Below are positions 16,521 to 37,191 of a stretch of DNA of 64,000 nt, in pieces. The notes under the pieces were generated by a model that saw only the letters and a program-made list of their open reading frames with translations, was not told where the DNA came from and did not search any database. Each line of letters starts with the position of its first letter. The stretch's first letter is position 1. The translations under genes were made by a program, and so were the position numbers. The stretch is from Roseovarius aestuarii (GTDB lineage Bacteria > Pseudomonadota > Alphaproteobacteria > Rhodobacterales > Rhodobacteraceae): the NCBI GenBank assembly GCA_027214255.1, contig JAPWHL010000004.1:124001-188000 (forward strand), given 5' to 3'.

Positions 16521-16580
16521 GGGCGTGTTTCCTATGTCAGTCGAAATCGTTGATCGGGCAGTCCTCTCAGTGGGGCGCTA

Positions 16581-16982
16581 TCATTCAGCAGCTTTGTCCG
16601 TCTGCTCCATCGCACCCAACATGTTGCTGACCCATTTCATCTGGGCGTCCAGATCGGCAATGGCTTCGTTCAGTTCGGCACGCTGCGCCTGCATGTCTTT
16701 CATGCGCTGGGCGGCCAAATCCAATGTGCGCCGCATCTGCATGTGCTGTTGATCGCCAGCGTGGTAGAGGTCCAGCAGCTGGCGGATTTCCTCAAGGCTA
16801 AAACCAAAACGCTTGCCTCGCAAAATCAGCTTCAGCCGTGCGCGGTCTCGCTTGGTAAACAGGCGTTTCTGGCCGCTGCGAATGGGGGCCAACAATTCCT
16901 TGGCCTCATAAAATCGCAATGTGCGGGGCGTGACGTCAAAGGTGTCGCACATTTCACGTATGGTCAGTGTCTGATCGGTCAT
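16581..16982 (-). CDS. MerR-family regulator of the acyl-CoA degradation operon
   Basis: A 133-residue protein with an N-terminal MerR-type winged helix (IREMCDTFDVTPRTLRFYEAKELLAPIRSGQKR spans residues 7-39), followed by a long coiled coil (about residues 75-125) for dimerisation. There is no metal-binding cysteine set, so it is not a metal sensor. It resembles LiuR/PsrA-like MerR regulators that control branched-chain amino acid and fatty-acid degradation in proteobacteria and respond to acyl-CoA or similar ligands (known of that group). It is the first gene of the operon and a palindromic site lies directly upstream at 17051-17080, pointing to autoregulation and control of the genes down to 9085. 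Confidence 0.88.
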   Translation of the reverse strand: MTDQTLTIREMCDTFDVTPRTLRFYEAKELLAPIRSGQKRLFTKRDRARLKLILRGKRFGFSLEEIRQLLDLYHAGDQQHMQMRRTLDLAAQRMKDMQAQRAELNEAIADLDAQMKWVSNMLGAMEQTDKAAE

Positions 16983-17050
16983 GTCTATCCTGCGTCGTCA
17001 TTCCGAAAACTCCCGATGTGGGAGTGTTTCTAACAGGCTACAACATAGAT

Positions 17051-17080
17051 TGACGCTTACGTAAGCTAAACGTTACGTCA
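17051..17080. promoter_or_regulatory. Candidate MerR operator with nested palindromes
   Basis: The perfect 12-base palindrome GCTTACGTAAGC occupies 17055-17066. It is nested in a wider dyad TGACG (17051-17055) to CGTCA (17076-17080), which also contains ACGTTACGT-like half-sites. It lies about 70-100 bases upstream of the MerR start codon. TTACGTNNACGTNA-type sites are known for fatty-acid and branched-chain degradation MerR proteins; the assignment here is by resemblance and position. Confidence 0.6.
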
Positions 17081-17209
17081 CTTTGGCACGTTTATGACAG
17101 GTACATATGAAACCAGCACAGCATGCTACTCCTGCACCGCGAACAACCCGTGCGTGCCATCTCTCGGCCCGGCTCGGCGGCGCCAATCAACATTCGGGAT
17201 TTAGAAGGA

Positions 17210-22736: not shown

Positions 22737-22765
22737 CCTTCTAGGGGTGACAAACATCACATTTG

Positions 22766-23237
22766 TCAGAAATTCTCTTCGACAAGGCGCCATGCGGTTT
22801 CGGCCCGAATACATGCAATAGAAATCAAGAAGCTCTTGCTCAGTCGGAATGCCCAACGCCTTACAATCAAGCCCCTTGAACTTTCCGGTGGGCAGAGTTC
22901 CGACGTGATTAAGGGCACAAACATAGCCCAAATCCGCAAGAGGATGCCCAAGGGTGGACAGCTCCCGGTCCGATTGCGCGATCACCTCAGAGGCCTCATC
23001 GCTTACAATCGCATTACCGGATCGAAAATCGTCATGCACGATGGAGGCGGCATCATCATCCGGCAAATTCGCCGGTCGCCAATCCATCAGATTGTTCATC
23101 ATGATGATGGTGTCAGTTTCCGTCGCCCCATACTGTTTGCTCCAACGGGCAATCTCACGGCCAAAATAGCCTTTGAAACAACCCAAATCACCCAAACCAA
23201 CTGCTTCGGTCTCGACGGCATGCAAGGCAGCAAGCAA
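22766..23237 (-). pseudogene. Decayed phosphotransferase-family (APH/ACAD10-type) gene fragment
   Basis: On the minus strand the frame reading LLAALHAVETEAVGLGDLG, ARWSKQYGATETDTIIMM, LMDWRPANLPDDD and ELSTLGHPLADLGYVC matches the middle of the aminoglycoside-phosphotransferase-like family often found with acyl-CoA dehydrogenases. Intact members are about 340 residues; here the N-terminal 120 or so residues are absent, a TGA lies immediately upstream of the matching region, and the C-terminal third is lost after ALGIPTEQELLDFYC. The catalytic loop HGDFRxDN has become HDDFRSGN, and the metal-binding DWE has become SDRE. It therefore cannot be an active kinase. No transposon scar is visible; it appears to be a deletion remnant in the 714 bases between the MFS gene and the Rieske gene. 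Confidence 0.82.
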
Positions 23238-23443
23238 CCCCGATCAGCAGGTGCAAAAACTAGCCTAATTTACGACAGGTGCTCTCCAAGAAAGGGGCAG
23301 TATCTCACAATCCAAACCGGCGCAGATTTTTATCTGACATCGTTCGCGATCACGCAAATCAAGTGACAAGCTTTGTATAGTCTTGTGACCTGAAAAGCTC
23401 CCTGAACGACCCGCCACCGTCCGAAGAACCAAACGCCACGTGC

Positions 23444-23463
23444 GGGGCCGTCAGGACGGCCCC
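23444..23463. terminator. Strong hairpin over the Rieske stop codon
   Basis: GGGGCCGT (23444-23451) pairs perfectly with ACGGCCCC (23456-23463) around a four-base loop and includes the TGA of the minus-strand Rieske gene. No T run follows on the minus strand, so it may stabilise the mRNA end as much as terminate. Confidence 0.4.
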
Positions 23464-24596
23464 AGATTGGCACCCAAAGCATCCAGAACCATTTTCTGAA
23501 AATGATGCACCGCGTGTTCGCTCAACTCGGTTCGACCGGCATCAACGATAAACCGCCCCTGATTGTAGGCCTTGGATTTCAACCCGCGCTGCACACTTTC
23601 GCAAAGGTCGATATCTTCGGGTTGCAACACGTCTTTTTGGTAGGTAGCCGCATCTTTCAACTGTGGAGACAATACGCCACCCAAGGTAAACCAGTCCTGA
23701 TACTCGATCGTGACCTCCGGCTTGAGCGGGTTCATCTGCAATACGGACAAATTGGCCTCACCCGGATACAACCAGATGGTAATGTTGGGCCACAAAAAGA
23801 AACCAGCATACCCAAATTCCACTTCACCAGTCTCAAAACTGAAAGCCTTGCTTCTTGTCGTCAATGGCGCGGCGGCGCACTGCGACGAATACCGATCACG
23901 TGTAATGGTCCGATAGGTATCCATATTCACCAAGTCCACAAAGTCCTTGTGAGCCGGGGCGCAGTGATAACATTCCAGAAAATTGTCGACCAAAACCTTC
24001 CAGTTTGCATCGACTTCAAAGGTGTCGCGTTGCGCAAAAGACAGCTTGTCTACGGACGGCATGTACTGCCGGATCTCTTCGTCCAGGCCAGCGTATTCTT
24101 CTGCAAATGGTTTCGCATTTGGATCAAGGTTGATCATGATCATGCCACAGAAGATTTCCAGCGTGACTTCTTTGAGCGAGAAGTCACACTTGTTGAATCC
24201 TTCAACATTTTCCGAATTGCGCGCATTGATCAGGTTACCCTGAAAATCAAACGCCCACGCATGATAGGGGCAAGTGATCACGTTTTTCTTGCCGGACCCT
24301 TCCAGCAATTCATGTCCGCGATGCGCACAAACGTTATAGAATGCACGTGTCTTACCATCCCGACCGTGCGCAACAAAAATATTTTGTTCGTGAATCTTGG
24401 TCGTGAAATACATTCCCGGTTCGGCCACCTGCGACACATGTCCTGCGTAATGCCAAGATTTGTAGAAAATCGCCTCTTTCTCCATCTCATAGATGTCAGC
24501 GTCCACATAGAACCGCGCAGGCATGGTAAATGACTTTGCGCCATCTGCATGGAACGGCGATTCACCTTCTTGTAGGTCCAAAAGATGCTTGTTCAT
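23451..24596 (-). CDS. Rieske-type aromatic-ring/amine oxygenase, alpha subunit
   Basis: A 381-residue oxygenase component. The Rieske 2Fe-2S ligands are C90-x-H92 and C109-x2-H112; the mononuclear iron site is formed by the His pair in NFLECYHCAPAH (H211, H216), with N205 and the bridging acidic residue E208. The C-terminal LCESVQRGLKSKAYNQGRF is typical of the GbcA/CntA-like branch, which demethylates or cleaves quaternary amines such as glycine betaine, carnitine or proline betaine. No reductase gene is adjacent, so an electron-supplying partner must lie elsewhere. A LysR gene is divergent, and a perfect inverted repeat separates the two starts. The substrate is inferred to be a quaternary or N-methyl amine, not proven. 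Confidence 0.85.
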   Translation of the reverse strand: MNKHLLDLQEGESPFHADGAKSFTMPARFYVDADIYEMEKEAIFYKSWHYAGHVSQVAEPGMYFTTKIHEQNIFVAHGRDGKTRAFYNVCAHRGHELLEGSGKKNVITCPYHAWAFDFQGNLINARNSENVEGFNKCDFSLKEVTLEIFCGMIMINLDPNAKPFAEEYAGLDEEIRQYMPSVDKLSFAQRDTFEVDANWKVLVDNFLECYHCAPAHKDFVDLVNMDTYRTITRDRYSSQCAAAPLTTRSKAFSFETGEVEFGYAGFFLWPNITIWLYPGEANLSVLQMNPLKPEVTIEYQDWFTLGGVLSPQLKDAATYQKDVLQPEDIDLCESVQRGLKSKAYNQGRFIVDAGRTELSEHAVHHFQKMVLDALGANLGPS

Positions 24597-24631
24597 GCGC
24601 TCGCCCTCCGCTGGCAGAAAATCATATCCTG

Positions 24632-24712
24632 TTTGACATAAGGTATACTCACCCTAATAACCGTTCAAACGATCAATATTTGCTCTTTTGGTATAGTTAA
24701 TCTTATGTCAAA
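24632..24712. promoter_or_regulatory. Perfect 11-bp inverted repeat between Rieske and LysR genes
   Basis: TTTGACATAAG at 24632-24642 is repeated in inverted form as CTTATGTCAAA at 24702-24712, with GGTATA-type extensions inward of each arm. The second arm contains the LysR start ATG (24705). The 59-base interior includes the T-rich ATATTTGCTCTTTTGG. Two distant identical half-sites facing each other suggest an operator at which a LysR dimer of dimers loops DNA or autorepresses. Confidence 0.65.
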
Positions 24713-25625
24713 TATCAGAGCCCGCCTTCCACACTTGGACCCTCTTGTTGCTTTCGAAGCCGCGGCACGGTTGGGTAGCTTTAAACACGCTGCGGACGAA
24801 CTATGCGTTACAGCATCAGCAGTCAGTCAACAGATCAGGGCACTAGAATCACAAATGAACGTGGCCTTGTTCGAACGCGGGCACCGTTCCGTTTGGTTGA
24901 CAGACAGGGGTAAGGATTTTCACAACAGCGTCGTTGTTGCCCTAAACCACCTTGCAAACGCCGCTGACGAGGCACGGTTGAATGACGGCAAAGAACGGCT
25001 GAAAATCGCGACTGATACGTCTTTTGCAGCGCATTGGTTCATACCGCGACTGCCCAAATTCGAAGCCCTGCACCCCGACATCTCTTTGCACATTATGGTG
25101 ACCGACGTACGAAACGACCTATTGAACGGCGATTGCCAGGTCGCCATGGTCCACGGCGAGGGCGATTGGCGCGGCTATGTGACCGAGCAACTGTTTGGCG
25201 AAGAAGTGTTCCCTGTCTGCTCCCCAGACTACCTTGAGAAATGGAACGGAACAATTACGCCAAACGATTTGGTGAACGCAGATCTCTTGGACCTCGACTA
25301 TGAAAAATGGAATTGGATGAACTGGGCGATCTGGTTGACCGAAATGAACATTTCCATGCCAAACCTGCCCCGCAAACTCCGGATGAACAGCTATCCTCTT
25401 TTGGTTGATGCTGCAAAGCGCGGGGCGGGTATCGCGCTTGCGTGGCGCTACTTGGTTGATGATGACCTTGTTAACGGGTCATTGATCCGACCCTTGGATC
25501 ACTCTGTCAAAACCAAATACGGTTATCACATCGCGAGCCCTTTCAACGACAAGCGGTCCCACGCCACCGATTGCTTTGTCGAATGGCTGTTGAGCGAACG
25601 CAATCTGCAACGGGCATGCATCTAG
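24705..25625 (+). CDS. LysR-family regulator, divergent to the Rieske oxygenase
   Basis: A 306-residue protein with an N-terminal winged helix-turn-helix (LVAFEAAARLGSFKHAADELCVTASAVSQQ across residues 13-42, recognisably the GcvA-type LysR DNA-binding helix) and a C-terminal periplasmic-binding-like effector domain (KIATDTSFAAHWFIPRLPKF, VAMVHGEGDWRGY). It should bind the inverted repeat at 24632-24712 and control the divergent oxygenase gene. Its ATG is embedded in the right arm of that repeat, so binding would interfere with its own transcription or translation. The effector is unknown; a quaternary amine would fit. Confidence 0.9.
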   Translation: MSNIRARLPHLDPLVAFEAAARLGSFKHAADELCVTASAVSQQIRALESQMNVALFERGHRSVWLTDRGKDFHNSVVVALNHLANAADEARLNDGKERLKIATDTSFAAHWFIPRLPKFEALHPDISLHIMVTDVRNDLLNGDCQVAMVHGEGDWRGYVTEQLFGEEVFPVCSPDYLEKWNGTITPNDLVNADLLDLDYEKWNWMNWAIWLTEMNISMPNLPRKLRMNSYPLLVDAAKRGAGIALAWRYLVDDDLVNGSLIRPLDHSVKTKYGYHIASPFNDKRSHATDCFVEWLLSERNLQRACI

Positions 25626-25721
25626 TATCAGAAAACAGCAAGAATAGCGGCTTGACTAGTCATACGAACCTTCGCAGCTTTCCATTTCAACTGTGGCTTT
25701 CGATGCCCCGTGTCGGACGAC

Positions 25722-25738
25722 GCCCGTTAGGAACGGGC
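25722..25738. terminator. Hairpin between convergent lysR and amidohydrolase genes
   Basis: GCCCGTT (25722-25728) pairs with AACGGGC (25732-25738), overlapping the amidohydrolase stop. The 7-bp stem lacks a T run. Confidence 0.35.
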
Positions 25739-27352
25739 ATAGACCTGCCTGCCGCCAACATAGGTTTCCGCCACCTGGACCTGGTCGATCTGATCCGGGG
25801 ATATGGCAAAAATATCGTCTTCCAGAATCGTAAAATCAGCTAGCTTTCCGATGGTCAACTGCCCCTTCAGATGCTCTTCGCGACCAACATAGGCTCCAAG
25901 AACGGTATAGGCCTGAATCGCCTCAAAAACGGTCACGGCCTCGCCTTGATATAGATCTGCCCCGCTGGCGGTCCGACGATTGACCATTGAGTGAATGCCA
26001 CGCATCGGATTGGGGTGACAAACCGGGCAATCCGAATGACCCGGGGCCACGATACCCGCATCGATCATTGAACGATGCGGCCACATGTATTGCATCGCGT
26101 CTGCGCCACGGTTGCGGATGTAGGAATCGCCAAGATCATATGCAAACCCTGTCGCGGACGAACAGATAACCTTTAGCCGGCTCAGGCGATTGAGGATCGC
26201 AGGTGTGACGTTGCAACAATGTTCAACCCGCAAGCGGTGATCCTTGACCGGATGGTGGTTTAACGCGTTCTCAAAAGCGTCGAGTACGAAATCAATGCCA
26301 CGGTCTCCGACTCCGTCGCAACCAACCATCAACCCCGCTTTGTGCGCCCGCAGCACGCGTTGATTAAAATCCTCGGCCTCATACAACAGCATACCGCGGT
26401 TGTCGTCCGGCTCGCCGATGATCTTTTCGCCAATATAGGGCTCGTAATAGGCCGCCGTGCGGCCCGAAGTGCTGCAATCGGGGCACCATTCCACACCGGT
26501 CAGCCGAACCCATTCATCACCGAATCCTGTGCGCCATCCCGAACGAATTATGGCATCAATCAGATCGTCTTCGCGCCCACTGGCCAGCAAGCCAACACGC
26601 ATGTTCAGTGTCCCGGCCTCGCGCATCAGTTGATAAGCTTCGATCCCTTCAGTTGAACACAGGCTGTTGTGAACCGACGTGATGCCATATCCGGCGAAAT
26701 CCTTGAAAACACGCTCCAGCCCACCACTGTAATCGGCGGTGGTGAATTTGGACTGACAATAATTGACGATGGCATGGGCTGCGGTTTCGCGCAAAAGGCC
26801 GGTGGGATCGCCTGTAACGGGATCGCGATCGATACGACCAAACGCAGGATCGGGCGTGTCCGCATCATACCCGATGATCTTTAATGCCGCGCTATTGGCA
26901 AACCCCAGATGCGCGTCGCGCCGGTTAAGATAGGCAGGACGCCCACCCGCCGCCGCATCCAGCGCGTCCCGCGTTGGATATCCCCCAAGGCGGTGATCGT
27001 CATATCCAAACCCGACAAACCACTGATCCTGTGGCGTCCCTTCGGTTTTGCGGCGAACCAGATCAAGCAGGGCATCGATACTGTCGGGACCGTCGCCAAG
27101 ATACGTCCACCTACCCAATTGCGCGCCGTATCGGTCCGGATGGCAATGGCTGTCGATAAAACCCGGAAGAACCAGTCGCCCACGTGCATCGATCACCGTG
27201 GCACTCGGTGCAAGATCGCGAATTTCGGCGGATGAGCCTGTGGCAACGATACGCCCGTCCGCGATTGCCATCGCCGCGACAAAATCGCCTGGCGTCTGCA
27301 TCGAGGCAATTTTGCCGTCAACAATGATAGTATCAATTGGGTTGAGGTTCAT
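25727..27352 (-). CDS. YtcJ-like amidohydrolase (metal-dependent hydrolase, amidohydrolase_3)
   Basis: About 541 residues of the amidohydrolase superfamily. The N-terminal beta-sandwich strand (TIIVDGKIASM) leads to the barrel metal motif LPGFIDSHCHPDRYG, with later metal residues in DGVGDRGIDF, RVEHCCNVTP and GHSDCPVCHPNPM; the C-terminal LKGQLTIGKLADFTILEDDIF closes the fold. Members hydrolyse exocyclic amides, formamides or ureido bonds. The frame opens at 27400, but ATG 27352 is chosen since the family starts with this strand and AAAGGA lies upstream. It follows a LysR gene on the same strand and may be in its regulon; the substrate is unknown. Confidence 0.86.
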   Translation of the reverse strand: MNLNPIDTIIVDGKIASMQTPGDFVAAMAIADGRIVATGSSAEIRDLAPSATVIDARGRLVLPGFIDSHCHPDRYGAQLGRWTYLGDGPDSIDALLDLVRRKTEGTPQDQWFVGFGYDDHRLGGYPTRDALDAAAGGRPAYLNRRDAHLGFANSAALKIIGYDADTPDPAFGRIDRDPVTGDPTGLLRETAAHAIVNYCQSKFTTADYSGGLERVFKDFAGYGITSVHNSLCSTEGIEAYQLMREAGTLNMRVGLLASGREDDLIDAIIRSGWRTGFGDEWVRLTGVEWCPDCSTSGRTAAYYEPYIGEKIIGEPDDNRGMLLYEAEDFNQRVLRAHKAGLMVGCDGVGDRGIDFVLDAFENALNHHPVKDHRLRVEHCCNVTPAILNRLSRLKVICSSATGFAYDLGDSYIRNRGADAMQYMWPHRSMIDAGIVAPGHSDCPVCHPNPMRGIHSMVNRRTASGADLYQGEAVTVFEAIQAYTVLGAYVGREEHLKGQLTIGKLADFTILEDDIFAISPDQIDQVQVAETYVGGRQVYARS

Positions 27353-27396
27353 GCAAAGGCGTCCTTTTTGGCGATTTGATTCATGCCTTACCCACG

Positions 27397-28284
27397 TCAA
27401 TCCAACTGCTTGCGTTGAATGTTCAGGGTAAGCCAGTCAATGAAGGCTGCAATGGGCCCGTTAATGGGTAGATTGGGAGCGACGACGAGGTAATAGGCAA
27501 GGCTTTGACGGCTGATCATCGCAGGCAGCGGCCGTACCAATCGACCCGTGGCGAGATCGCTGGCCATCGTCAGATCATCGCCGATGGCCACGCCTAAACC
27601 TTCGCGCGCGGCAACAATACCGTGGTTGAAATCATCAAAGCGCAACCTTCTGTTGATCAACGAAGGATCCTTGCCGTGCGCCACCATAAACTCGCGCCAA
27701 TGCGCCCCTCCCGGTTCATCAATCATGACATGCTTGAACAAATCATCGATCTTTCTCACCGGTTCCGGCCCGTTCATTATGCGCGGGCTGCACACCGGAA
27801 AAACGTCAAGTTGGCGAAGGAGCCGAATGTTTCGATCCGGCCATTCAGGACGCCCATAGAGTATCTCAAGATCGGATTCTGCCCTTTGGCGCGTGCTGGC
27901 CGACAAAATGGTAATAGAGATGTCAGGATAGCTTTTGAAAAATTGTGGCAATCGTGGAACCAGCCATGTCGCGGCCAGACCGGGCATACACGTCACTGTC
28001 AGTTCCCCCTCAAAGCTTTGCTCGGTGACAGCCCGCAACGCGATGTCAATGTCATCAAATGCCTTTGATAACTGTGGCATCAATTGCCGGCCCTTTGGTG
28101 TCAGCTCGATTCCGCGCCCAGAGCGCCGGGTCAGGGTCACGCCAAGAGCGTTTTCAAGGGCTTTGACCTGTTTGCTGATAGCGCCGTGGGTCACATAAAG
28201 CTCTTGCGCCGCCTTGCTAATATTAAGCCTGCGGCCCGCAGCTTCAAAGGCACGTATTGCGCTGAATGGGGGTAAGTCGCGCAT
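27397..28284 (-). CDS. LysR-family (GcvA-like) regulator
   Basis: A 295-residue LysR regulator, starting at ATG 28284 (MRDLPPFSAIRAFEAAGR), the classical start of the GcvA subgroup; the TTG start at 28323 would add 13 residues that do not fit the family. The HTH region is NISKAAQELYVTHGAISKQV; the effector domain contains TVTCMPGLAATWLVPRLPQF. It is divergent to the guanidine-modifying enzyme gene at 28428 and upstream of the amidohydrolase gene at 27352. It therefore most likely controls the ABC importer operon to its right, via the repeated sites at 28309-28352. Confidence 0.9.
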   Translation of the reverse strand: MRDLPPFSAIRAFEAAGRRLNISKAAQELYVTHGAISKQVKALENALGVTLTRRSGRGIELTPKGRQLMPQLSKAFDDIDIALRAVTEQSFEGELTVTCMPGLAATWLVPRLPQFFKSYPDISITILSASTRQRAESDLEILYGRPEWPDRNIRLLRQLDVFPVCSPRIMNGPEPVRKIDDLFKHVMIDEPGGAHWREFMVAHGKDPSLINRRLRFDDFNHGIVAAREGLGVAIGDDLTMASDLATGRLVRPLPAMISRQSLAYYLVVAPNLPINGPIAAFIDWLTLNIQRKQLD

Positions 28285-28308
28285 TTGCAGTTTGTCTTTC
28301 CTTAGGGA

Positions 28309-28352
28309 CGAAAAGTGGATCAATATGTGAGTTTTTTTCCGAAAAGTTGGAT
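28309..28352. promoter_or_regulatory. Tandem operator repeats upstream of the guanidine/ABC operon
   Basis: CGAAAAGTGGAT at 28309-28320 is repeated as CGAAAAGTTGGAT at 28340-28352, both followed by AT(A/T)TGTG-like bases. The 31-base spacing is close to three helical turns, so both sites face the same side of the helix. This is the expected geometry for a LysR tetramer in the divergent region between 27397-28284 and 28428. Confidence 0.55.
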
Positions 28353-28427
28353 ATTTTGTGGTATTGTGTCATCATTTTTCACAGCTTAGCCTGCATTTGA
28401 CAAGACATAATCGGGAAGGGCCTTGAG

Positions 28428-29444
28428 ATGTCTCAACCAGCTGCGCAAAAGAACATCAGCGTCTACAGCGCCACAATCAAAATGTTCGGCTCGGAACCTG
28501 ACCCCGCTTTTGACGATCCCGAAAGGCTTGTCCGCCTGTGGGGAAAACAGTGGGGGTGCGACAACGATGTGGGGCAGCTTCGCGCGGTGCTGATGCATCG
28601 CCCCGGCGACGAATTCAACATCATCGACCGAAACAAGGCGATCCCAGAAACCGGTGGATTTGGTGATCTAGACACTGGCTGGTACTGGCAAAGCCAAGAA
28701 ATCCCCGATCTGACCGAGCTACAAGCCCAGCACGACGGTTTGGCAACCGCATTGCGTGCGGAAGGGGCGGAAGTAATCTATCTTGAAGGCGTCACCGATG
28801 GACGGTTCAAGTCTGTCTATACCCGCGACTCCTGCATTGCCGTACCGGGGGGGGCAATCGTAACGCGCCTTGCCCCGCGGATGCGCCATGGCGAAGAACA
28901 AGTGGTGACACGTACTCTGGCCAAAGCGGGCGCACCGATTCTGCGTACGCTGCACGGTAGGGCCATGTCCGAAGGCGGCAGCTTTGCTTGGCTGAATTCC
29001 AAGACCGCAGTGATCGGACGGGGTATTCGTCAGAACGACGAAGGAATCGCCCAGATTTCCGAAGTGCTGGCACATATGGGTGTCGAACTGTTGGTGGTCG
29101 ATTTACGCGGGTACGATATCCACCTCGACGGGCATTTTCTGATGCTCGCACCGGATCTCGCGTTGATCTGGGCACGGGGGCTGCCATTTAGTTTTCTCGA
29201 AAAACTGAAAGAGCTGAACATCCGTACGATCGAAATGTCCGAAGCCGATAATCGGTGGATCGTCAACGGGTTAGCAGTACGACCCCGACGCGTTCTCATG
29301 CCCGAAGGCATATCCGACGAAACGCGCATCGCTCTTGAACACGAAGGCGTGGAAATAGTCACTGTGCCTTATGACAGGGTACAAATGAACGGAGGCGGGA
29401 TTCATTGCTCGACTTCGCCATTGATCCGCGACAGCATAACCTAA
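28428..29444 (+). CDS. Guanidine-modifying enzyme (arginine deiminase/DDAH/amidinotransferase fold)
   Basis: A 338-residue alpha/beta-propeller enzyme. The catalytic set is complete: D134 in RDSCIAVPGG, E182 in SEGGSF, H232 and D234 in IHLDGHF, and the nucleophile C327 in NGGGIHCST. The family attacks the guanidinium carbon of arginine, methylarginines or similar compounds, producing citrulline plus an amine, or transferring the amidine. It is longer than DDAH (about 255 residues) and shorter than arginine deiminase (about 410), nearest in size and motif order to the bacterial amidinotransferase/ADI-like group. As the first gene of an operon with an ABC importer, an oxidase and a deacylase, it probably acts in catabolism. 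Confidence 0.87.
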   Translation: MSQPAAQKNISVYSATIKMFGSEPDPAFDDPERLVRLWGKQWGCDNDVGQLRAVLMHRPGDEFNIIDRNKAIPETGGFGDLDTGWYWQSQEIPDLTELQAQHDGLATALRAEGAEVIYLEGVTDGRFKSVYTRDSCIAVPGGAIVTRLAPRMRHGEEQVVTRTLAKAGAPILRTLHGRAMSEGGSFAWLNSKTAVIGRGIRQNDEGIAQISEVLAHMGVELLVVDLRGYDIHLDGHFLMLAPDLALIWARGLPFSFLEKLKELNIRTIEMSEADNRWIVNGLAVRPRRVLMPEGISDETRIALEHEGVEIVTVPYDRVQMNGGGIHCSTSPLIRDSIT

Positions 29445-29505
29445 AGTCAGGCCGAAAGAGCCGACACACAACAAACCAACCACACAGACCAACAGGGAGA
29501 AAGAG

Positions 29506-30546
29506 ATGAACTTTCGTAAAACACTGCTGAGTGTCACCGCATTAACGACCATTATGGGCGCGGGTGCAGGTGCGGTTTTGGCACAGGATTCGATCACGAT
29601 TGCATCGTGGGGCGGCGCCTATCAAGAGGCCCAGCGCAAGGCTTGGTTCGACGTTGTCGAAGAAGAGCTCGGCATCAAAGTTATCGAGGACACGACATCG
29701 GGCGCAGCAGACGTGCGCGTACAGGTCGCCTCGGGTGCTCCGACGTGGGATCTGGTTCAACAAGGCAACTACAGCTGCGCAATCCTTGAAAACGAAGGCA
29801 ATGTCGAAATGCTGGACGAATCTGTCCTGAGCGTGCCCGGCATTCCCGACATCATGAAAGGCAAGGGCTGGATCAGTAACCTTGTTTACGGTGCCGTTCT
29901 GGCGCGCAGCGACGCAGCCTATCCCGAAGATAAACCAAACTCGTGGGCTGATTTCTGGGATACCGAAAAATTCCCCGGCCCGCGCAGCCTGCGCCGCAAC
30001 CCGGTCTATAGCTTGGAAGCCGCACTTATTGCTGATGGCGTCCCCATGGACGAACTGTATCCCCTTGATACCGAGCGCGCCTTTAACAAGCTGAAAGAAC
30101 TGAAGGACGATGTCGCCGTCTGGTGGAGCTCGGGTGCGCAATCCGCGCAGATTCTGCAAGATGGCGAAGTGGACATGGCGTTGGTGTGGAATGGCCGCGC
30201 GCAATCCATCGCAGATGCGGGTGCTCCGGTCAGCATTACCTTTGATCAGCAAATGGTTCTGACAGACTGCTGGGTCATCCCAAAAGGCGCCAAGAACAAA
30301 GACCTGGCAATGAAGGCAATCGAGATCATGAGCCGCCCAGAAGTTCAGGCGCGCATCTCGCTGTTCATCAATTATGGTCCGGCAAACGCGGATGCGTTCG
30401 ACACCGGTGTAATCGATGACGACGTGGCCAAAGGTCTGCCCAGCCATCCCGATAACGTCGCCAAAGGCTTTGTTCTGGATGCCGGTTATTGGGCAGAGAA
30501 CCTCGACAAGCTGACGCAGGACTTCGACTTTTTCATCCAGGAATAA
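29506..30546 (+). CDS. Periplasmic substrate-binding protein of a polyamine/opine-type ABC importer
   Basis: A 346-residue secreted protein with an N-terminal signal peptide (MNFRKTLLSVTALTTIMGAG, cleavage likely after VLA at about residue 26). The mature part has the PotD/PotF-type type-II fold (ITIASWGGAYQEAQRK, VWWSSGAQSAQILQDGEVDMAL, PKGAKNKDLAMKAIEIM). It would deliver the solute to the permeases encoded downstream. The binding pocket differs enough from PotD that the ligand cannot be named; a guanidino compound or polyamine fits the operon. An AGGGAGAAAGAG ribosome-binding region precedes the ATG. Confidence 0.92.
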   Translation: MNFRKTLLSVTALTTIMGAGAGAVLAQDSITIASWGGAYQEAQRKAWFDVVEEELGIKVIEDTTSGAADVRVQVASGAPTWDLVQQGNYSCAILENEGNVEMLDESVLSVPGIPDIMKGKGWISNLVYGAVLARSDAAYPEDKPNSWADFWDTEKFPGPRSLRRNPVYSLEAALIADGVPMDELYPLDTERAFNKLKELKDDVAVWWSSGAQSAQILQDGEVDMALVWNGRAQSIADAGAPVSITFDQQMVLTDCWVIPKGAKNKDLAMKAIEIMSRPEVQARISLFINYGPANADAFDTGVIDDDVAKGLPSHPDNVAKGFVLDAGYWAENLDKLTQDFDFFIQE

Positions 30547-30552
30547 GTAGCA

Positions 30553-31689
30553 ATGCATGATGTGAACAAATCCACCGGCCCGGTATCCACCGGGCCGGAC
30601 GTGGCATCGGGCCGCGGCCGCGCCTTGCCGATTAGCGTAAAGTCACTGACAAAAACCTATGGCGCATTCAATGCGCTGAACAACGTCAGTATCGACATCC
30701 GCAGCGGTGAGTTCATGACCCTGCTTGGTCCGTCTGGATCAGGCAAAACGACCCTTTTGATGGTGCTGGCCGGATTTGTGCGCCCCGATAGCGGATCGGT
30801 GCTGTTTGGCGATGACGAAGTCCTGCTGCTACCGCCGCACAAGCGCGACATCGGGATGGTGTTCCAAAACTACGCTTTATTCCCACATATGACGGTCGCA
30901 GAAAACCTAGCGTATCCGCTGAAACTACGCAGCATTGGAAAATCCGAAAGGCAAGACCGGGTCAACCGCGCGCTTGATCTTGTACAACTCGGCGGTCTGG
31001 GCGACCGGGGCATCGACGCTCTGTCAGGTGGCCAACGCCAGCGTGTGGCACTGGCCCGCGCCGTCATCTTTGAACCGCGCATTCTGTTGATGGATGAACC
31101 CCTTTCGGCACTGGACAAGAATCTGCGCGAACAGATGCAGTTCGAAGTCCGCGCGTTACATGACCGGCTAGGTATCACCACTGTTTATGTTACACACGAT
31201 CAACGCGAAGCGCTGACAATGTCAGATCGTATCGCAGTTATCAACGATGGCCAGATTCAGCAGGTCGATCCACCACAACGCCTGTATGAGCGGCCCAAAA
31301 CCTTCTTTGTCGCCAGTTTCATCGGAGAAACCTATCGCCTGCCTGTGGACGTAACCAACGGCACGGCCAGCCTGTTTGGCCAACCAATCAAAACAGGTGG
31401 GCCGTTGGAGTCCACCGCCTTGCAACAGGCCCTGATCTTGCGACCCGAGATGCTGCAAATCGCCGATGGCGGCCCCGGACCAGACGAAAACCAGATGACC
31501 GGCACGTTGCGTCAAACCGTATTTCAAGGCGACAGCATCGTCAGTTACATTTCCATTCACGGCGATCATGAAATTGCAGTCCGCAGCCAGCATCGCAGCA
31601 ATCAAACCTTGCCCGTCCCCGGTAGCCAAGTACGGTTGTCATGGTTGATTCAGGACACGGTCATTCTTCCCGAGGATGACCAGACATGA
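30553..31689 (+). CDS. ABC importer ATPase (PotA-type)
   Basis: A 378-residue ATP-binding subunit. It has Walker A LLGPSGSGKTTLLM, the Q-loop MVFQNYALFPHMTV, signature DALSGGQRQRVALARA, Walker B ILLMDEPLSALD and the H-loop VTHDQREAL, then a C-terminal TOBE regulatory domain from about residue 260. It powers import by the two permeases that follow. It lies seven bases after the binding-protein gene and overlaps the next gene by four bases, so the operon is tightly coupled. Confidence 0.95.
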   Translation: MHDVNKSTGPVSTGPDVASGRGRALPISVKSLTKTYGAFNALNNVSIDIRSGEFMTLLGPSGSGKTTLLMVLAGFVRPDSGSVLFGDDEVLLLPPHKRDIGMVFQNYALFPHMTVAENLAYPLKLRSIGKSERQDRVNRALDLVQLGGLGDRGIDALSGGQRQRVALARAVIFEPRILLMDEPLSALDKNLREQMQFEVRALHDRLGITTVYVTHDQREALTMSDRIAVINDGQIQQVDPPQRLYERPKTFFVASFIGETYRLPVDVTNGTASLFGQPIKTGGPLESTALQQALILRPEMLQIADGGPGPDENQMTGTLRQTVFQGDSIVSYISIHGDHEIAVRSQHRSNQTLPVPGSQVRLSWLIQDTVILPEDDQT

Positions 31690-32573
31690 CCGCTACGGAA
31701 CACACAGAACCCCTGAACAAACAGGCTCTGAAAAGGCAGGCACGCACACAACAGCGCAACGAGCTGTCTTTGTCGCTTCCCGCATTCATCCTTGTTGGGA
31801 GCCTTGTTCTGGTCCCGATTGGCTGGCTGTTCTGGTTGTCGATCTATGGTGCGGATGGCTTCACAGCCGAGAACTATATTCGTCTGCTGCACCCATCCTA
31901 CAAGAAAACCTTGATCACTACATTCGAGCTCGCCTTTCTGGTCACCGGTCTTTGTATTTTGCTGGGTTATCCGCTGGCATATCTGGCTTCGCAGCTGAAA
32001 CCGCGCATGGCAAGTTTGGTGTTGCTATGTGTGCTGTTTCCATTCTGGACCTCGCTTTTGGTGCGGACCTATGCATGGTTGGTGCTGCTGCAACGCCGCG
32101 GATTAATTAACACTTGGCTGATGGACATGGGGCTGATCGACGCCCCGCTAAAACTGGCACATAACTTTACGGGGACCACTATTGGAATGGTGCATATCAT
32201 GTTGCCATTCTTCGTTCTGCCGCTCTATGCGAGCATGAAAACCGTGGATCTTAGCCTGCTAAAGGCTGCCGCCAACTTGGGTGCGTCACCGGTCAAAGCC
32301 TTTTGGCAGATCTATGTGCCACTGACCTTGTCGGGGTTGGGCGCTGGCGTGATTTTGGTCTTTGTTCTGTCGCTGGGTTTCTATGTAACCCCCGCCCTAC
32401 TGGGCGGTGGCCGTGTGATGATGTGGGCCATGCAAATCGAACGATCAATGGCGGTCTATGCAGACTGGGGTGCGGCCAGCGCGCTGGGCGTTGTCCTGTT
32501 GGTTATGACCTTAGGTATCCTTTGGGCGTTTGCGCGCCTGACAGGAGCCATGTCATCGGTGGAGGGGAAGTAA
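31686..32573 (+). CDS. ABC importer permease (PotB-type)
   Basis: A 295-residue inner-membrane subunit with about six transmembrane helices and the EAA loop KAAANLGASPVKAFWQIYVPL near residue 197 that contacts the ATPase. It forms the channel with the second permease. Its ATG overlaps the TGA of the ATPase gene. Confidence 0.94.
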   Translation: MTATEHTEPLNKQALKRQARTQQRNELSLSLPAFILVGSLVLVPIGWLFWLSIYGADGFTAENYIRLLHPSYKKTLITTFELAFLVTGLCILLGYPLAYLASQLKPRMASLVLLCVLFPFWTSLLVRTYAWLVLLQRRGLINTWLMDMGLIDAPLKLAHNFTGTTIGMVHIMLPFFVLPLYASMKTVDLSLLKAAANLGASPVKAFWQIYVPLTLSGLGAGVILVFVLSLGFYVTPALLGGGRVMMWAMQIERSMAVYADWGAASALGVVLLVMTLGILWAFARLTGAMSSVEGK

Positions 32574-32574
32574 T

Positions 32575-33381
32575 ATGTGGAACAAGCCCGCAACCGACAC
32601 ACAGGTCACGCATCTTCAGCGGCTTTGGCTATATATCTTGTGTACGCTGGTCCTCTTGTTTCTGGTTATGCCCACCCTACTCGTGATTCCGATGAGTTTT
32701 TCGGATTCGCGCTATCTAAGCTTCCCGCCAGAATCGTGGTCATTACGGTGGTATCGTGCCTATTTCAGTTCCGCGGAATGGTTACAGGCCACTGCCGTAT
32801 CCTTTAAGGTGGCCTTTCTGACGATGATATTGGCGACAACCACTGGCACCCTCGCGTCTTACGGGTTGCATACAACGCGTGCGCGCTTGGGCAAGTACAT
32901 GATGGTGCTGCTGACAATGCCAATGATTATTCCGGTGATCCTTCTGGCTGTCGGAATATTCCTGACCTTCGCGCCCGTCGGTCTAAACTCGACCATTGGG
33001 GGGCTGGTGCTGGCGCATACCGTGCTGGCTATTCCATTGGTGATGATCACCGTGACCGCAGGATTAAAAAACTTCGACATCAACCAAGAAATGGTCGCGC
33101 GCTCAATGGGGGCTTCACGGCCTTGGGCTTTCTTGACGGTAACATTGCCGCAAATTCGTAACTCGGTTTTGTCGGGTGCCTTGCTCGCCTTTATCATCTC
33201 GCTGGACGAGGTCGTGATCGCACTACTGATTGCAGGCGGTGACAAAGCAACCCTGACCCGTCGCATGTTCCTGGCATTGCGTGACGAGATCGACCCGACG
33301 ATTGCAGCCATCTCGACGTTGCTGATTGTGTTTTCAATCGTGATGTTGGCCCTTTCGCAATTTCTTCAATCCAAAAAATAG
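32575..33381 (+). CDS. ABC importer permease (PotC-type)
   Basis: A 268-residue six-helix membrane subunit with the EAA loop MVARSMGASRPWAFLTVTLPQ near residue 176. The pair PotB-PotC-type permeases completes the importer. It starts one base after the previous stop. There is no sign of truncation. Confidence 0.94.
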   Translation: MWNKPATDTQVTHLQRLWLYILCTLVLLFLVMPTLLVIPMSFSDSRYLSFPPESWSLRWYRAYFSSAEWLQATAVSFKVAFLTMILATTTGTLASYGLHTTRARLGKYMMVLLTMPMIIPVILLAVGIFLTFAPVGLNSTIGGLVLAHTVLAIPLVMITVTAGLKNFDINQEMVARSMGASRPWAFLTVTLPQIRNSVLSGALLAFIISLDEVVIALLIAGGDKATLTRRMFLALRDEIDPTIAAISTLLIVFSIVMLALSQFLQSKK

Positions 33382-33390
33382 GCTTCCGGC

Positions 33391-34698
33391 ATGCAGGACG
33401 AGCGTCTCTTCACCCCCGATTTCAAGACGCAACCATACTGGTGGGATGCCGCGCGTCCCGGCATAGGCGCCCCGGCACAGATACCGACAAAAGTCGATGT
33501 TTGCATCATCGGCGGCGGCTTTACCGGACTGTCCTGCGCGTTGGAATTGGCCCGTGATGGCACATCATGCGCAGTATTAGACTCAAAACGAATTGGGCAA
33601 GGGGCCAGCTCGCGCAATGGCGGGCTGGTATCGGGCGCACTGAAACATGCAGAATCCTCGCTGGTTGGTCATGTCGGCGAAGAACGCGCCATGCAGCTCA
33701 TGCGCGAAGCCGCAGGAACCCTTCAGTTCCTTGATGATCTGATTACCCGCGAGGGGATTGAATGTGATTTTGCCCGCGTCGGCCGGTTTAGCTGTGCGTG
33801 GTCGCGTAAACACTATGACAGCATGGCACGTAGCGCGGAAAAGACCGCAATGCTGACGGGTGAACCCGCCTATATGGTCCCGCAAAACCACCAGCGTGAT
33901 GAGATCGGCAGCGACTACTTTTTTGGCGGGCAGGTGTCTGAAGGTGCGGCAACAATTCATCCGGGCAAATACGTCGCCGGTCTGGCAGACGCCGCTCAGC
34001 GCGCTGGAGCGCAGTTGCTGGGGCAGACCCATATGAAGGGGATGACCCGCACCGCGCAGGGCTGGCTGGTCGAAACCGATCGAGGTGTGATCGAAGCGGA
34101 ACGCGTGATGCTGGGCACGAACGGATACACCGGGCGTGAAACGCCATGGTTCCGACGGCGGCTTGTCCCGGTGGCAAGTTTCCTAGTTGCCACCGAAGAA
34201 TTGCCCGAGGGCCTTGCCCAAGAACTGGTTCCTAACGCCCGCGGTCTTGCGGATTCGCGCCGCGTTCTAAATTATTTCCGCCTGTCACCCGATCACAAGC
34301 GGGTACTGTGGGGTGGGCGCGTCGGAACCCACGCGATGGATGCACGCCAAAGCGGGTTGCGCCTGCACAAAACGATGTGCCGTGTCTGGCCGCAGTTAAA
34401 GGACGTGCGCATATCTCACAGTTGGAACGGCAACGTCGCCTTCACCCTGGATTTCATCCCGCATCTGGGCGCGCACGAAGGCGTGCACTATGCGCTTGGC
34501 TGTCAAGGCAGCGGCGTGGCGATGCAATCATGGATGGGCACACAGGCCGCCCGCACCATGCTGCGCGGCAATAGCCAAAGCGCCTTTGCCGGTCTCGATT
34601 TTCCTGCTCAGCCCGGCTATGGCGGCAACCCATGGTTCTTGCCTCTGATCCTCCAATGGTACCGGCTGCGCGATCAAATAGACAGGAGGCTACAATGA
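33391..34698 (+). CDS. DAO-family FAD-dependent amine oxidase
   Basis: A 435-residue flavoprotein with the FAD-binding Rossmann fold VDVCIIGGGFTGLSCALELARD near residue 30 and the SSRNGGLVSG motif typical of gamma-glutamylputrescine oxidase (PuuB)/glycine- and sarcosine-oxidase relatives. It oxidises a C-N bond of a primary or secondary amine, releasing H2O2 or passing electrons on. The C-terminal GCQGSGVAMQ completes FAD binding. The operon position after the importer suggests it acts on the imported compound after deamidination or deacylation. It overlaps the next start by four bases. Confidence 0.88.
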   Translation: MQDERLFTPDFKTQPYWWDAARPGIGAPAQIPTKVDVCIIGGGFTGLSCALELARDGTSCAVLDSKRIGQGASSRNGGLVSGALKHAESSLVGHVGEERAMQLMREAAGTLQFLDDLITREGIECDFARVGRFSCAWSRKHYDSMARSAEKTAMLTGEPAYMVPQNHQRDEIGSDYFFGGQVSEGAATIHPGKYVAGLADAAQRAGAQLLGQTHMKGMTRTAQGWLVETDRGVIEAERVMLGTNGYTGRETPWFRRRLVPVASFLVATEELPEGLAQELVPNARGLADSRRVLNYFRLSPDHKRVLWGGRVGTHAMDARQSGLRLHKTMCRVWPQLKDVRISHSWNGNVAFTLDFIPHLGAHEGVHYALGCQGSGVAMQSWMGTQAARTMLRGNSQSAFAGLDFPAQPGYGGNPWFLPLILQWYRLRDQIDRRLQ

Positions 34699-35963
34699 CG
34701 GCTCATGACGACAACCGCGCCGAAATCCTTGGTTGGCTAGACGACGAACGCGATAACATTATCAACCTGCTCAAGACGTTCCTGCGCGCCCCGTCACCCA
34801 ATCCGCCGGGAAACACTTTGGCCGCAGCGCAGGTTGTACGTGATTATCTCGATGCTGCGGGACTGGACTACCGGGTAATTGACCCACATCCCGAAATGCC
34901 CAACATCGTCGCCACATTCGAGGGCAGCAGTGCGGGCCGGCACCTCGTTCTGAACGGTCATATGGATGTTTTTCCCGTCCCAGAAAGCAAAGCAGGCTGG
35001 ACTCATGAGCCATGGGGCGGTGAGGAAAAAGATGGACGCATCTATGGGCGCGGTGCCTGCGATATGAAACCGGGCACGACCGCTTCCATCATCACATATT
35101 GCCTTTTGCATCGCCTTCGCGACCGTCTGCACGGTCGATTAACGCTAACCTGCGTCTCGGACGAAGAGACATTTGGCCCCTGGGGCGCGCGCTATCTGAT
35201 GGAACATCACCCGGAAGTGCACGGTGATTGCCTGTTGAACGGCGAACCGGGCGGGCCGGAGTCGATCCGCTTTGGAGAGCGCGGCCCACTTTGGGTTGAG
35301 TTTACCGCCCGCGCCACGGGAGCGCATGGCGCTTATGTCCACATCACTGAAAGTGCCACCAAGATTGCCATGAATGTCGCACGCGACCTAGAGGAACTGA
35401 CAACACTCGAAGGAGCACCACCGCATAACGTCGCCAGTGCCGTGGATGCAGGCCGAAAAACCATGGACAGTATGATGGGCGACGGGGCTGGCGATCTGGT
35501 ATCGCGCGTCACGCTCAATATTGGGCTGATAAAAGGCGGGGAAAAGGCGAATATGATCCCGTCGGAATGCAGTTTTACCGCCGATTTGCGGCTCCCCGTG
35601 GGTATGTCCAAATCCGATCTTCTCCCGAAAATTGAAGACATCGCCGCGCGCTATCCCGGTGTTGAATGGAAAGTTGTTGGGGGAGACGAACCCTCATGGT
35701 GTGATCCGTATCACGAAATGGTCGGAATCCTCCAAAACAACGTCGAAGCATTCGGGCGCCCGCGCCCCACCCCCATCGTAAGCCTTGGCGGAACCGATGC
35801 ACGGCTTTGGCGGCATCATGGCGTCCCCGCGTATGTTTATGGCCCCTACCCGTATGGAATGGGCTCACACGACGAGAATGTCGATATCGAAGAATTCCTG
35901 CATATCGTGCGCACCCATGTACTGTCAGCATGCGACTATCTCAGTCGCCCAAAGGACAGCTAA
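34695..35963 (+). CDS. M20-family deacylase (ArgE/DapE/ACY1 type)
   Basis: A 422-residue zinc hydrolase. The start is ATG 34695, preceded by AGGAGG and overlapping the previous stop, instead of the longer frame from 34632. Metal ligands and catalytic residues are visible: NGHMDVFPV (His and Asp), GRGACDMKPG (bridging Asp), SDEETFGP (catalytic Glu pair), LNGEPGGPE and the C-terminal GSHDENVDI His. The family removes N-acyl groups or hydrolyses N-carbamoyl and N-acetyl amino acids. It is placed like EutE/DoeB, the deacetylase of ectoine breakdown, but no eutB/eutC genes are in this window. Confidence 0.9.
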   Translation: MTAHDDNRAEILGWLDDERDNIINLLKTFLRAPSPNPPGNTLAAAQVVRDYLDAAGLDYRVIDPHPEMPNIVATFEGSSAGRHLVLNGHMDVFPVPESKAGWTHEPWGGEEKDGRIYGRGACDMKPGTTASIITYCLLHRLRDRLHGRLTLTCVSDEETFGPWGARYLMEHHPEVHGDCLLNGEPGGPESIRFGERGPLWVEFTARATGAHGAYVHITESATKIAMNVARDLEELTTLEGAPPHNVASAVDAGRKTMDSMMGDGAGDLVSRVTLNIGLIKGGEKANMIPSECSFTADLRLPVGMSKSDLLPKIEDIAARYPGVEWKVVGGDEPSWCDPYHEMVGILQNNVEAFGRPRPTPIVSLGGTDARLWRHHGVPAYVYGPYPYGMGSHDENVDIEEFLHIVRTHVLSACDYLSRPKDS

Positions 35964-35988
35964 GGCATCCCACCTGATCTCAGGCCTG

Positions 35989-36016
35989 CAGGGGCGGCAC
36001 GATACCGCCGCCCCTG
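35989..36016. terminator. Hairpin between the M20 and M24 genes
   Basis: CAGGGGCGGC (35989-35998) pairs with GCCGCCCCTG (36007-36016) around an eight-base loop. It lies between convergent genes and likely terminates both ends of the cluster, although a T run is weak. Confidence 0.55.
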
Positions 36017-36027
36017 TAGGGGACCGC

Positions 36028-37191
36028 TTAGCGCGTGATCAAGGCATCCAAAGGCAGCCGGCTCAGTACCTCGGGCGCTTGGCCATCTGCGCGCGTCAGG
36101 ATCGTATAGCCTGCTGACATGGCAAGGTTGCGCGGTGCATCAATCAAGATCGCGTGCAGGAACAGGATCATGCCTGGCACGATCGGCGTCGGGTTCCCCG
36201 AATGCAGCATCGGCGGCACATCCATCCATGATGGCGAATACGTCGCGCCCAATGAATACCCACAAGCCGACATGCGTGTCTTCTCGAACCCGGCCGCATC
36301 ATATGTCGCCCGGTGTGCGTCATCAATCTGACCAATTGTATTCCCGACGCGGGCCGCATCCGTCATCGCAGCAATGGCGTCTCGCGTAGCTGCAAACATC
36401 TCAAGATGCTGATCACTCGCCCTGCCTATTGTGATCGTGCGCATCAGACAGGCACAATAGTGTCGATAGCTGCCAGCGTGCTCGATGGTCAGTTGATCCA
36501 CATCATCCAGAGTCCGATACCCGGTCGCGCTGCGCACCAAAAGCGCGCGGTCGCCCGATCCCAGCACCGGACCGGATGGGGGCATATCGCCGCCGCCTTC
36601 AAGGATCGGCGAAATTCCAGCAGCCGCAATCTTGCCCTCAAAAACACCGGGACCGGATGCCTCGACCATCGCTTCCAGCGACTGGTCGGCCAGTTCGGCA
36701 GCTTCACGCACATAGGCAATCTCGGCGTCCGATTTCACCAATCGCAACTCCCGCACCAAATGCGAGGCATCAATCATCGTGGCATAGTCGTCAAACCGCT
36801 GCCGAAGCCTCTCATGGTTGTCACCGGTCAGCCCGAAACTCCGCAACTCGACCCCGATCTTGCACCCCTTCAGGCCTTTTTCGTCAAGGATCACTTGCAA
36901 TTCGGCAGTAGGGTCAATGCCCGGTGCATCGTACCATAAACGAATATCGTCAATAATCGACGTGCGCCGCGCCTGCTCAAGGTCAGGCCGTCGCGTCAAC
37001 AAGGTCACAGGGCTGTCATCCACCGTCAGTACGGCACATTGGAAAAAGACATACCCTTTGGTGTCAAACCCAGTCAGGTAGTAATGACTTTCCTGAGCGA
37101 AAATCAACAACGCATCCAGCCCGTCCCGCCGCATAAGCCGACGCGCCGCAGCGATCCTTTGATCAAACTCTGACCGTTCGAAATGCAACAT
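36028..37191 (-). CDS. M24 'pita-bread' hydrolase lacking metal ligands (creatinase/ectoine-hydrolase type)
   Basis: A 387-residue member of peptidase family M24. An N-terminal domain (QRIAAARRLMRRDGLDALLI) precedes the pita-bread domain from about residue 155. The five metal ligands of true aminopeptidases are not in place: the first Asp lies in a segment reading IEHAGSYRHYCACLMRT, so the second Asp is absent, and the His block reads GYSLGATYSPSW instead of GHGIG. This pattern is that of metal-free members such as creatinase and ectoine hydrolase (EutD/DoeA), which open a cyclic or guanidino compound. The specific substrate is unknown. It points toward the M20 gene, with which it probably works. 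Confidence 0.85.
   Translation of the reverse strand: MLHFERSEFDQRIAAARRLMRRDGLDALLIFAQESHYYLTGFDTKGYVFFQCAVLTVDDSPVTLLTRRPDLEQARRTSIIDDIRLWYDAPGIDPTAELQVILDEKGLKGCKIGVELRSFGLTGDNHERLRQRFDDYATMIDASHLVRELRLVKSDAEIAYVREAAELADQSLEAMVEASGPGVFEGKIAAAGISPILEGGGDMPPSGPVLGSGDRALLVRSATGYRTLDDVDQLTIEHAGSYRHYCACLMRTITIGRASDQHLEMFAATRDAIAAMTDAARVGNTIGQIDDAHRATYDAAGFEKTRMSACGYSLGATYSPSWMDVPPMLHSGNPTPIVPGMILFLHAILIDAPRNLAMSAGYTILTRADGQAPEVLSRLPLDALITR

Follow-up and report, generated by a model that had tools for sequence, protein, structure and literature searches.

An M24-fold protein of Roseovarius aestuarii without the peptidase metal ligands belongs to a distinct EutD-like clade

INTRODUCTION

Among described proteins of the M24 (creatinase) fold, the one closest to the subject of this study is the ectoine hydrolase EutD (DoeA). 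In the part of PMC5924519 that deals with ectoine breakdown, EutD and then EutE act in series. Other described members include DddP, and a section of PMC4108388 states that the DddP family keeps its metal-binding residues throughout, while passages of two further papers (PMC6790972, PMC7848895) treat the Xaa-Pro aminopeptidases found in sponge archaea as hypothetical analogues of creatinase. Searches of the open-licence PMC literature listed papers on EutD, DddP, EBP1 and creatinase, and none on a characterised relative from the clade described below.

We analysed a 64,000-nucleotide stretch of the Roseovarius aestuarii genome (the window; assembly GCA_027214255.1, contig JAPWHL010000004.1, positions 124,001 to 188,000), which encodes an M24-fold protein next to an M20-type deacylase. 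Here we compare this protein and its gene neighbours with the known systems and find that it represents a separate clade of EutD-like M24-fold proteins that appears to be uncharacterised.

RESULTS

The gene product has a predicted M24 fold that is closest to EutD

The gene under study is the following.

36028-37191, minus strand: M24/creatinase-fold protein of 387 aa with an ATG start (identified by alignment, Pfam, structural model and clade)

Pfam matches to Creatinase_N (9.2e-22, 78.4 bits, gathering score 22) and to Peptidase_M24 (3.7e-24, 86.1 bits, gathering score 23) give it the domain combination of an M24B metallopeptidase. The two segments that a sequence-only reading had marked as the places of the metal ligands are both present, IEHAGSYRHYCACLMRT as residues 236-252 and GYSLGATYSPSW as residues 311-322. 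The same reading had likened the protein to the EutD/creatinase type rather than to the metallopeptidases, and this likeness held in both comparisons that we made: EutD is the closest solved structure by sequence (E 7e-28) and also the nearest by fold (Z 47). An AlphaFold2 model built from 44 aligned sequences had a mean pLDDT of 94.1 and a pTM of 0.92. When Foldseek was run with this model, EutD chains ranked first (E 1.9e-34 to 1.7e-32), and VIA-align gave Z scores of 47.3, 47.1 and 46.3 for three EutD entries (1.7-1.9 Å over 371-379 residues), with the next structure at 40.9 and prolidases and creatinase at about 40.

The protein falls into a well-supported clade next to the EutD-like proteins

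We placed the protein in a tree of 141 sequences, made up of 125 clade rows, 12 EutD-like rows and four other M24 proteins, with no row that is a creatinase by name. The 125 rows, which include the window protein (124 distinct sequences), form one clade with a support of 0.965; they are the best matches listed plus four plasmid proteins, a sample and no census. The 12 EutD-like rows form a clade of their own (support 0.506) that adjoins it.

The source genome has at least three clade copies, the window protein included: among the matches listed there are two further copies of 45-46% identity, together with one EutD-like protein. Across the 198 genomes of the family that we searched, copies among the matches listed were 39-50% identical (>260 bits), with one at 31% (206.5 bits), and EutD-like proteins scored 149.7 bits or less, which leaves a gap below the clade copies. 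A scan of genome contigs found a relative encoded in at least 574 of the 595 matched stretches, the best 80 loci being 44-87% identical. The closest named copy among the matches listed is that of Roseovarius spongiae (87%); the Roseovarius pacificus copy (locus L045) is 81% identical, and a copy in another genome of the genus (G231) has the same sequence as L045. One 53% relative (L141/L183, G418:C29:18880-20010) carries a single in-frame TAG in an otherwise full-length match.

All five metal ligands are replaced, and four other residues are fixed

The residues on which the following comparison turns are listed with their codons; rows are those of the tree.

36532-36534, minus strand: R220, in the place of EutD H238 and prolidase H192; Arg in 125/125 clade rows
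36481-36483, minus strand: E237, aligned with EutD E255 and with the first Asp ligand; Glu in 125/125 clade rows
36448-36456, minus strand: C246-A247-C248, with C248 at the position of the bridging Asp
36256-36258, minus strand: Y312, in the place of prolidase H284; Tyr in 125/125 clade rows and in 12/12 EutD-like rows
36154-36156, minus strand: H346, aligned with the fourth ligand (E313 of prolidase); His in 125/125 clade rows, Met or Pro in EutD-like rows

For comparison we used the prolidase of P. furiosus, in which we take D209, D220, H280, E313 and E327 to be the dinuclear-metal ligands (Asp, Asp, His, Glu and Glu) and H192 and H284 to be active-site His residues. In the alignment the ligands correspond to E237, C248, S308, H346 and G361, so that none of the five is kept; neither of the two His is kept either, their columns holding R220 and Y312 (each in all 125 clade rows). 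HMMER alignments agree with this pairing. The claim that the protein is without the dinuclear metal ligands is thus borne out. The protein is likely to be metal-free, judging from these columns; we stop short of calling this proven because E237 and H346 could in principle bind a metal.

The window protein has both the four-residue set R220, E237, Y312 and H346 and its place within the single clade, and this set is kept even in actinobacterial members of 36-37% identity. Y245 is also invariant in the 125 rows, and H293 and D351 are present in 122 and 121 of them. The Cys residues vary more: among the 16 rows of at least 56% identity (window included) C248 is found in all 16 and C246 in 14, the other two having His or Asn at 246, and 99 of the 102 paralogue rows have His at position 246, while 80 have Ala at position 248. 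The R220 column appears less fixed across M24 than the ligands, as two of the four other M24 rows (own_L204 and own_L205) are without His there. A further M24 protein of the same genome (L203, G000:C77:25862-26986) has His, Asn, Ala and Glu at the R220, E237, C248 and H346 columns, a set that, as far as sequence goes, recalls creatinase.

Among orthologues, dN was 0.08-0.14 against a dS of 1.1-2.6 (five Roseovarius-type pairs, dS near or at saturation). Chance or decay is insufficient to account for the altered active site, because the four residues are fixed in 125/125 clade rows and dN is far below dS. A decaying gene was ruled out on these same two grounds.

The protein differs from ectoine hydrolase at invariant positions

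At the columns of R220, E237, Y245, Y312 and H346, the 12 EutD-like rows have His, Glu, Tyr, Tyr and Met or Pro. The counterpart of EutD Glu255 is present throughout, as Glu in 125/125 clade rows and in 12/12 EutD-like rows, whereas EutD His238, Arg326, His361 and Glu377, all invariant in the 12 EutD-like rows, are absent from the window protein. The Arg326 column is Arg in 12/12 EutD-like rows and Ala (residue 309) in 120/125 clade rows; position 344 is His in 12/12 and Phe in 125/125; and the Glu377 column holds Glu in only 10 of the 125 clade rows. From these column counts, the clade and EutD have the Glu and Tyr in common, and the clade has its His and Arg elsewhere. Because residues that are invariant in the EutD-like rows are missing, EutD chemistry may not carry over.

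The curated NCBIfam models for ectoine hydrolase were both missed, NF038259 with 163.1 bits (cut-off 575) and TIGR02993 with 142.3 bits (cut-off 613), and TIGR02993 also gives matches under its cut-off in all 14 control genomes. A different gene of the source genome, on contig C31, scores 629.9 bits and so exceeds the TIGR02993 (DoeA) cut-off. We therefore rejected identity with EutD on four counts, namely the missed cut-offs, the separate clade, the differing active-site residues and the other DoeA gene in the genome, and ectoine is an unlikely substrate.

An M20 deacylase, an FAD oxidoreductase and a Pot-type importer are encoded nearby

The genes and elements next to the M24 gene are as follows.

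34692-35963, plus strand: M20 ArgE/DapE-type deacylase, convergent neighbour of the M24 gene
35989-36016: perfect inverted repeat of 10 bp (35989-35998 and 36007-36016) between the M20 and M24 stops, with no T-run
33391-34698, plus strand: FAD-dependent oxidoreductase of the DAO family
32575-33381, plus strand: ABC importer permease 2, PotC/PotI-like
31686-32573, plus strand: ABC importer permease 1, PotB/PotH-like
30553-31689, plus strand: ABC importer ATPase (375.1 bits, above the potA subfamily cut-off of 355.6)
29506-30546, plus strand: solute-binding protein of the Pot-type ABC importer
28428-29444, plus strand: arginine-deiminase/DDAH-superfamily protein with a GGGIHC motif, far under the specific cut-offs
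27397-28323, minus strand: LysR-type regulator, transcribed divergently from the cluster; a relative starts at the edge of L051 and L179
25727-27400, minus strand: Amidohydro_3 (YtcJ-type) amidohydrolase; in L180 a relative of 55% identity comes after M24 and M20

The M20 gene does lie convergently beside the M24 gene, as the earlier reading had it, and its product carries the usual motifs of the family, which we take to be metal-ligand motifs. That reading went on to see in the two genes the M24 (EutD) and M20 (EutE) pair of ectoine catabolism, and here it failed. The best match of the EutE model in the genome (259 bits, cut-off 402.7, contig C47) is an AstE/AspA-type protein, and no AstE_AspA domain was found in the 13 window proteins scanned (22608-37191). 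The M20 neighbour was accordingly ruled out as EutE, and since EutE is not an M20 protein, the ectoine analogy for the M24-M20 pair breaks down at the level of the family.

The two stop codons are separated by 64 bases that contain the perfect inverted repeat, which, from its sequence, is a possible shared transcript end of the M20 and M24 genes. A terminator scan gave four matches, where shuffled sequences gave 1.4 on average (sd 1.4); the M20-M24 gap contains none of the four, and the 10-bp repeat is not among them. A promoter scan gave one match, which equals the chance expectation.

The FAD, arginine-deiminase-like and YtcJ-type neighbours reached no NCBIfam cut-off among the matches listed (the best 25 of longer lists). 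The deiminase-like protein scored at most 58.9 bits against models with cut-offs of at least 300. Its GGGIHC is presumably the motif of arginine-deiminase/DDAH-type proteins, and its relatives (78-84%) adjoin the importer in L051, L178 and L179; because it is kept beside the importer in these loci, the product is probably a guanidine-modifying enzyme.

Two genes lie farther out. A Rieske oxygenase alpha subunit (23451-24596, minus strand) matches GbcA (glycine betaine monooxygenase) best, with a weak score of 155.7/670 bits, and has a 29% relative near the M24 gene of L039. A short ORF with a TTG start (22608-23237, minus strand) aligns with the APH phosphotransferase domain over its second half alone (103-211 of 239) and is possibly a remnant or has a wrong start.

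The M24, M20 and importer genes recur together in part of the close loci

Among the matches listed, 18 distinct loci have an M24 gene of at least 56% identity (the window, L035-L045, L050, L051, L178 and L180-L182). L045 and L179 were counted as one genome (R. pacificus), and genes in the related loci were called by our own simple ORF calls. At least two importer parts are present in 11 of the 18 (the window, L035, L036, L042-L045, L051, L178, L180 and L181), those of L044 being merely 35-45% identical, and an M20 gene is present in seven (the window, L036, L045, L051, L178, L180 and L181) and absent from 11. When the window is left out, the importer is found in 10 of 17 loci and M20 in six of 17, three of these six (L045, L051 and L178) being close relatives of the window. 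No importer was found in seven of the 18 loci (L037-L041, L050 and L182, the last with one part at the contig start). The sequence of L037, L039, L044, L050 and L182 is short on at least one side, whereas L038, L040 and L041 have no such importer despite 8 kb on both sides.

The two genes are convergent in the window and in L181, while in L180 they are on the same strand, 3 bases apart, with the YtcJ-type gene coming next. This recurrent linkage in six of 17 close loci supports the idea, first drawn from the window, that M24 and M20 are partners. An extra DAO-type gene lies between M20 and M24 in L179 (8234-9553), from R. pacificus, and in L178 (7629-8930), from a second congener, and this second DAO-type gene is absent from the window and L051. 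L180 has a DAO+GCV_T dehydrogenase-like protein. The best below-cut-off matches of the flavin enzymes in L035 and L036 are mycofactocin-type or BaiCD-like old yellow enzymes, not amine dehydrogenases, and because of this N-demethylation as a common theme of the clusters is weakened.

More distant members have other neighbours. In actinobacterial plasmids (L136 9911-12046 and L137 9995-12009, 36-37% identity) the M24 gene directly precedes a creatininase-family gene, which is followed by an MFS transporter, a PLP enzyme and a RidA-type protein. In a Terrarubrum plasmid (L134) two clade members (9977-11155 and 16132-17328) flank one ABC importer, and genes for a carbamoylase, PxpB, AtzE/AtzF (allophanate hydrolase) and HpxZ are nearby. 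L190 also has two clade copies, with ABC ATPase matches between them. The member on a Rhizobium plasmid (L135 9995-11146) has pgeF and prs on either side, with lgt and a methyltransferase close by. Such surroundings, in contrast to the catabolic ones in the window, suggest a housekeeping role; ORF lengths in unannotated Rhizobiales loci suggest that others share the order pgeF-M24-prs.

DISCUSSION

We propose that the window protein is a metal-free, Glu-dependent C-N hydrolase of an EutD-like clade that acts on an imported nitrogen-rich solute other than ectoine, a reading that we hold to have close to an even chance of being right. The neighbouring Pot-type ABC importer would supply the solute. 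E237 would then play the part of EutD Glu255 as nucleophile or general base on an amidine or amide carbon; we cast it in this part because we take Glu255 to be the catalytic residue of EutD. R220 and H346 may stand in for EutD His238, Arg326 and His361 in substrate binding and protonation. The reaction would be a C-N hydrolysis, either a ring opening or the removal of an amidino or acyl-type group, the product would pass to the M20 deacylase, and the amine so freed would go to the FAD oxidoreductase. As the creatininase, carbamoylase, PxpB and allophanate-hydrolase neighbours of other members are C-N hydrolases by name, an amidine, guanidino, ureide or lactam-like compound would fit as substrate. 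The place of the Rhizobium member among housekeeping genes counts against a catabolic scheme, and the close loci without the importer (seven of 18) or without the M20 gene (11 of 18) also weigh against this reading.

In a bolder form, which we consider doubtful, the clade would have rebuilt its active site, sharing Glu and Tyr with EutD, losing the EutD His and Arg and gaining Arg and His elsewhere. The Cys-Ala-Cys of the orthologues in the old metal pocket would then serve new chemistry, either thiol-assisted or based on a novel mononuclear metal site. The nutrient acted on would be one with an undescribed route of breakdown, imported by the Pot-type system and finished by the M20 enzyme and FAD oxidase.

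Several other explanations were weighed against the proposed metal-free hydrolase. The protein could be an amidinohydrolase for creatine-like or other guanidino acids that yields urea together with an N-methyl or N-alkyl amino acid, the latter then being oxidised by the FAD enzyme. The fold is the same as that of creatinase (Z 40.1), a creatininase-family gene adjoins the actinobacterial members, and the window cluster combines an arginine-deiminase/DDAH-type protein with a DAO oxidase; L180 has the DAO+GCV_T protein. We nevertheless find it unlikely: the protein matches creatinase weakly in sequence (E 6e-7), and the column of EutD H238 and prolidase H192, which presumably also takes in the catalytic His232 of creatinase, is Arg in 125/125 rows. 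Also improbable is a metalloenzyme with a new mononuclear site formed by E237, H346 and C246/C248 (H246 in paralogues). E237 and H346 do occupy former ligand positions, C248 sits at that of the bridging Asp, and C246 with C248 marks the orthologue group, with His at 246 in 99/102 paralogue rows; yet C246 is His or Asn in two of the 16 close rows, position 248 is mostly Ala in the paralogues (80/102) and the remaining ligands are lost. A non-catalytic pseudo-enzyme, such as a sensor or a protein that associates with the M20 enzyme, would explain why every peptidase metal ligand is gone, and it has precedents in M24 pseudo-peptidases (EBP1, in a section of PMC11266112) and in the Spt16 structures among the fold matches. 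However, all 125 rows share new charged residues where the active site used to be, a pattern more in keeping with catalysis or ligand binding than with a scaffold, and we give this explanation a small chance.

That the protein hydrolyses ectoine or hydroxyectoine together with the M20 enzyme is very improbable. DoeA/EutD is the nearest structure and gives the best NCBIfam matches, and the E255 equivalent is present, but the scores are far under the cut-offs, the protein lies outside the EutD-like clade with different active-site residues, the 13 scanned window proteins include no EutE of the AstE/AspA type, and another gene exceeds the DoeA cut-off. A prolidase or aminopeptidase P with ligands in shifted positions, as the Pfam M24 domain and the public-record names of relatives would have it, is scarcely credible with 0/5 ligands and neither of the two His retained.

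Public plasmid records do give members of the clade the name 'Xaa-Pro peptidase family protein', the kind of annotation against which the earlier reading had warned. Because of these record names, a widespread clade is probably filed under the wrong activity. If our reading of a metal-free hydrolase is true, the clade adds a further metal-free, non-peptidase branch of M24 beside creatinase and EutD, and it offers four defined residues for mutation and a defined gene set through which the substrate might be sought. The Rhizobium member between pgeF and prs, near lgt, raises the separate question of a housekeeping role.

The window protein compares with the known systems as follows. EBP1/PA2G4 and the N-domain of Spt16 have the M24 fold, yet they are eukaryotic and non-enzymatic, whereas the clade has a fixed set of new charged residues in its pocket. 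The DMSP lyase DddP (4b28, R. denitrificans; Z 32.1) is likewise a non-peptidase of the M24 fold and marine; it has the M24 metal ligands, which the window protein is without. With Xaa-Pro dipeptidase and aminopeptidase P (M24B) both domains and the fold are shared, but all five metal ligands and the two His of P. furiosus prolidase are substituted. Creatinase (1chm, 1kp0, 7yto) has a similar fold (Z 39.5-40.1) at 17-20% identity, and the column in which its catalytic His presumably falls holds Arg in the clade. EutD/DoeA of Halomonas elongata (6twj, 6twk, 6yo9) is alike over the whole fold (Z 46-47, 1.7-1.9 Å, 27% identity), its sequence is likewise without the prolidase metal ligands, and its Glu255, Tyr263, Tyr329, Pro337 and Trp339 are kept as E237, Y245, Y312, P320 and W322. 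The window protein differs from it in the changes of His238 to R220, Arg326 to A309, His361 to F344, Met363 to H346 and Glu377 to Y362, in its separate clade and in its other gene neighbours.
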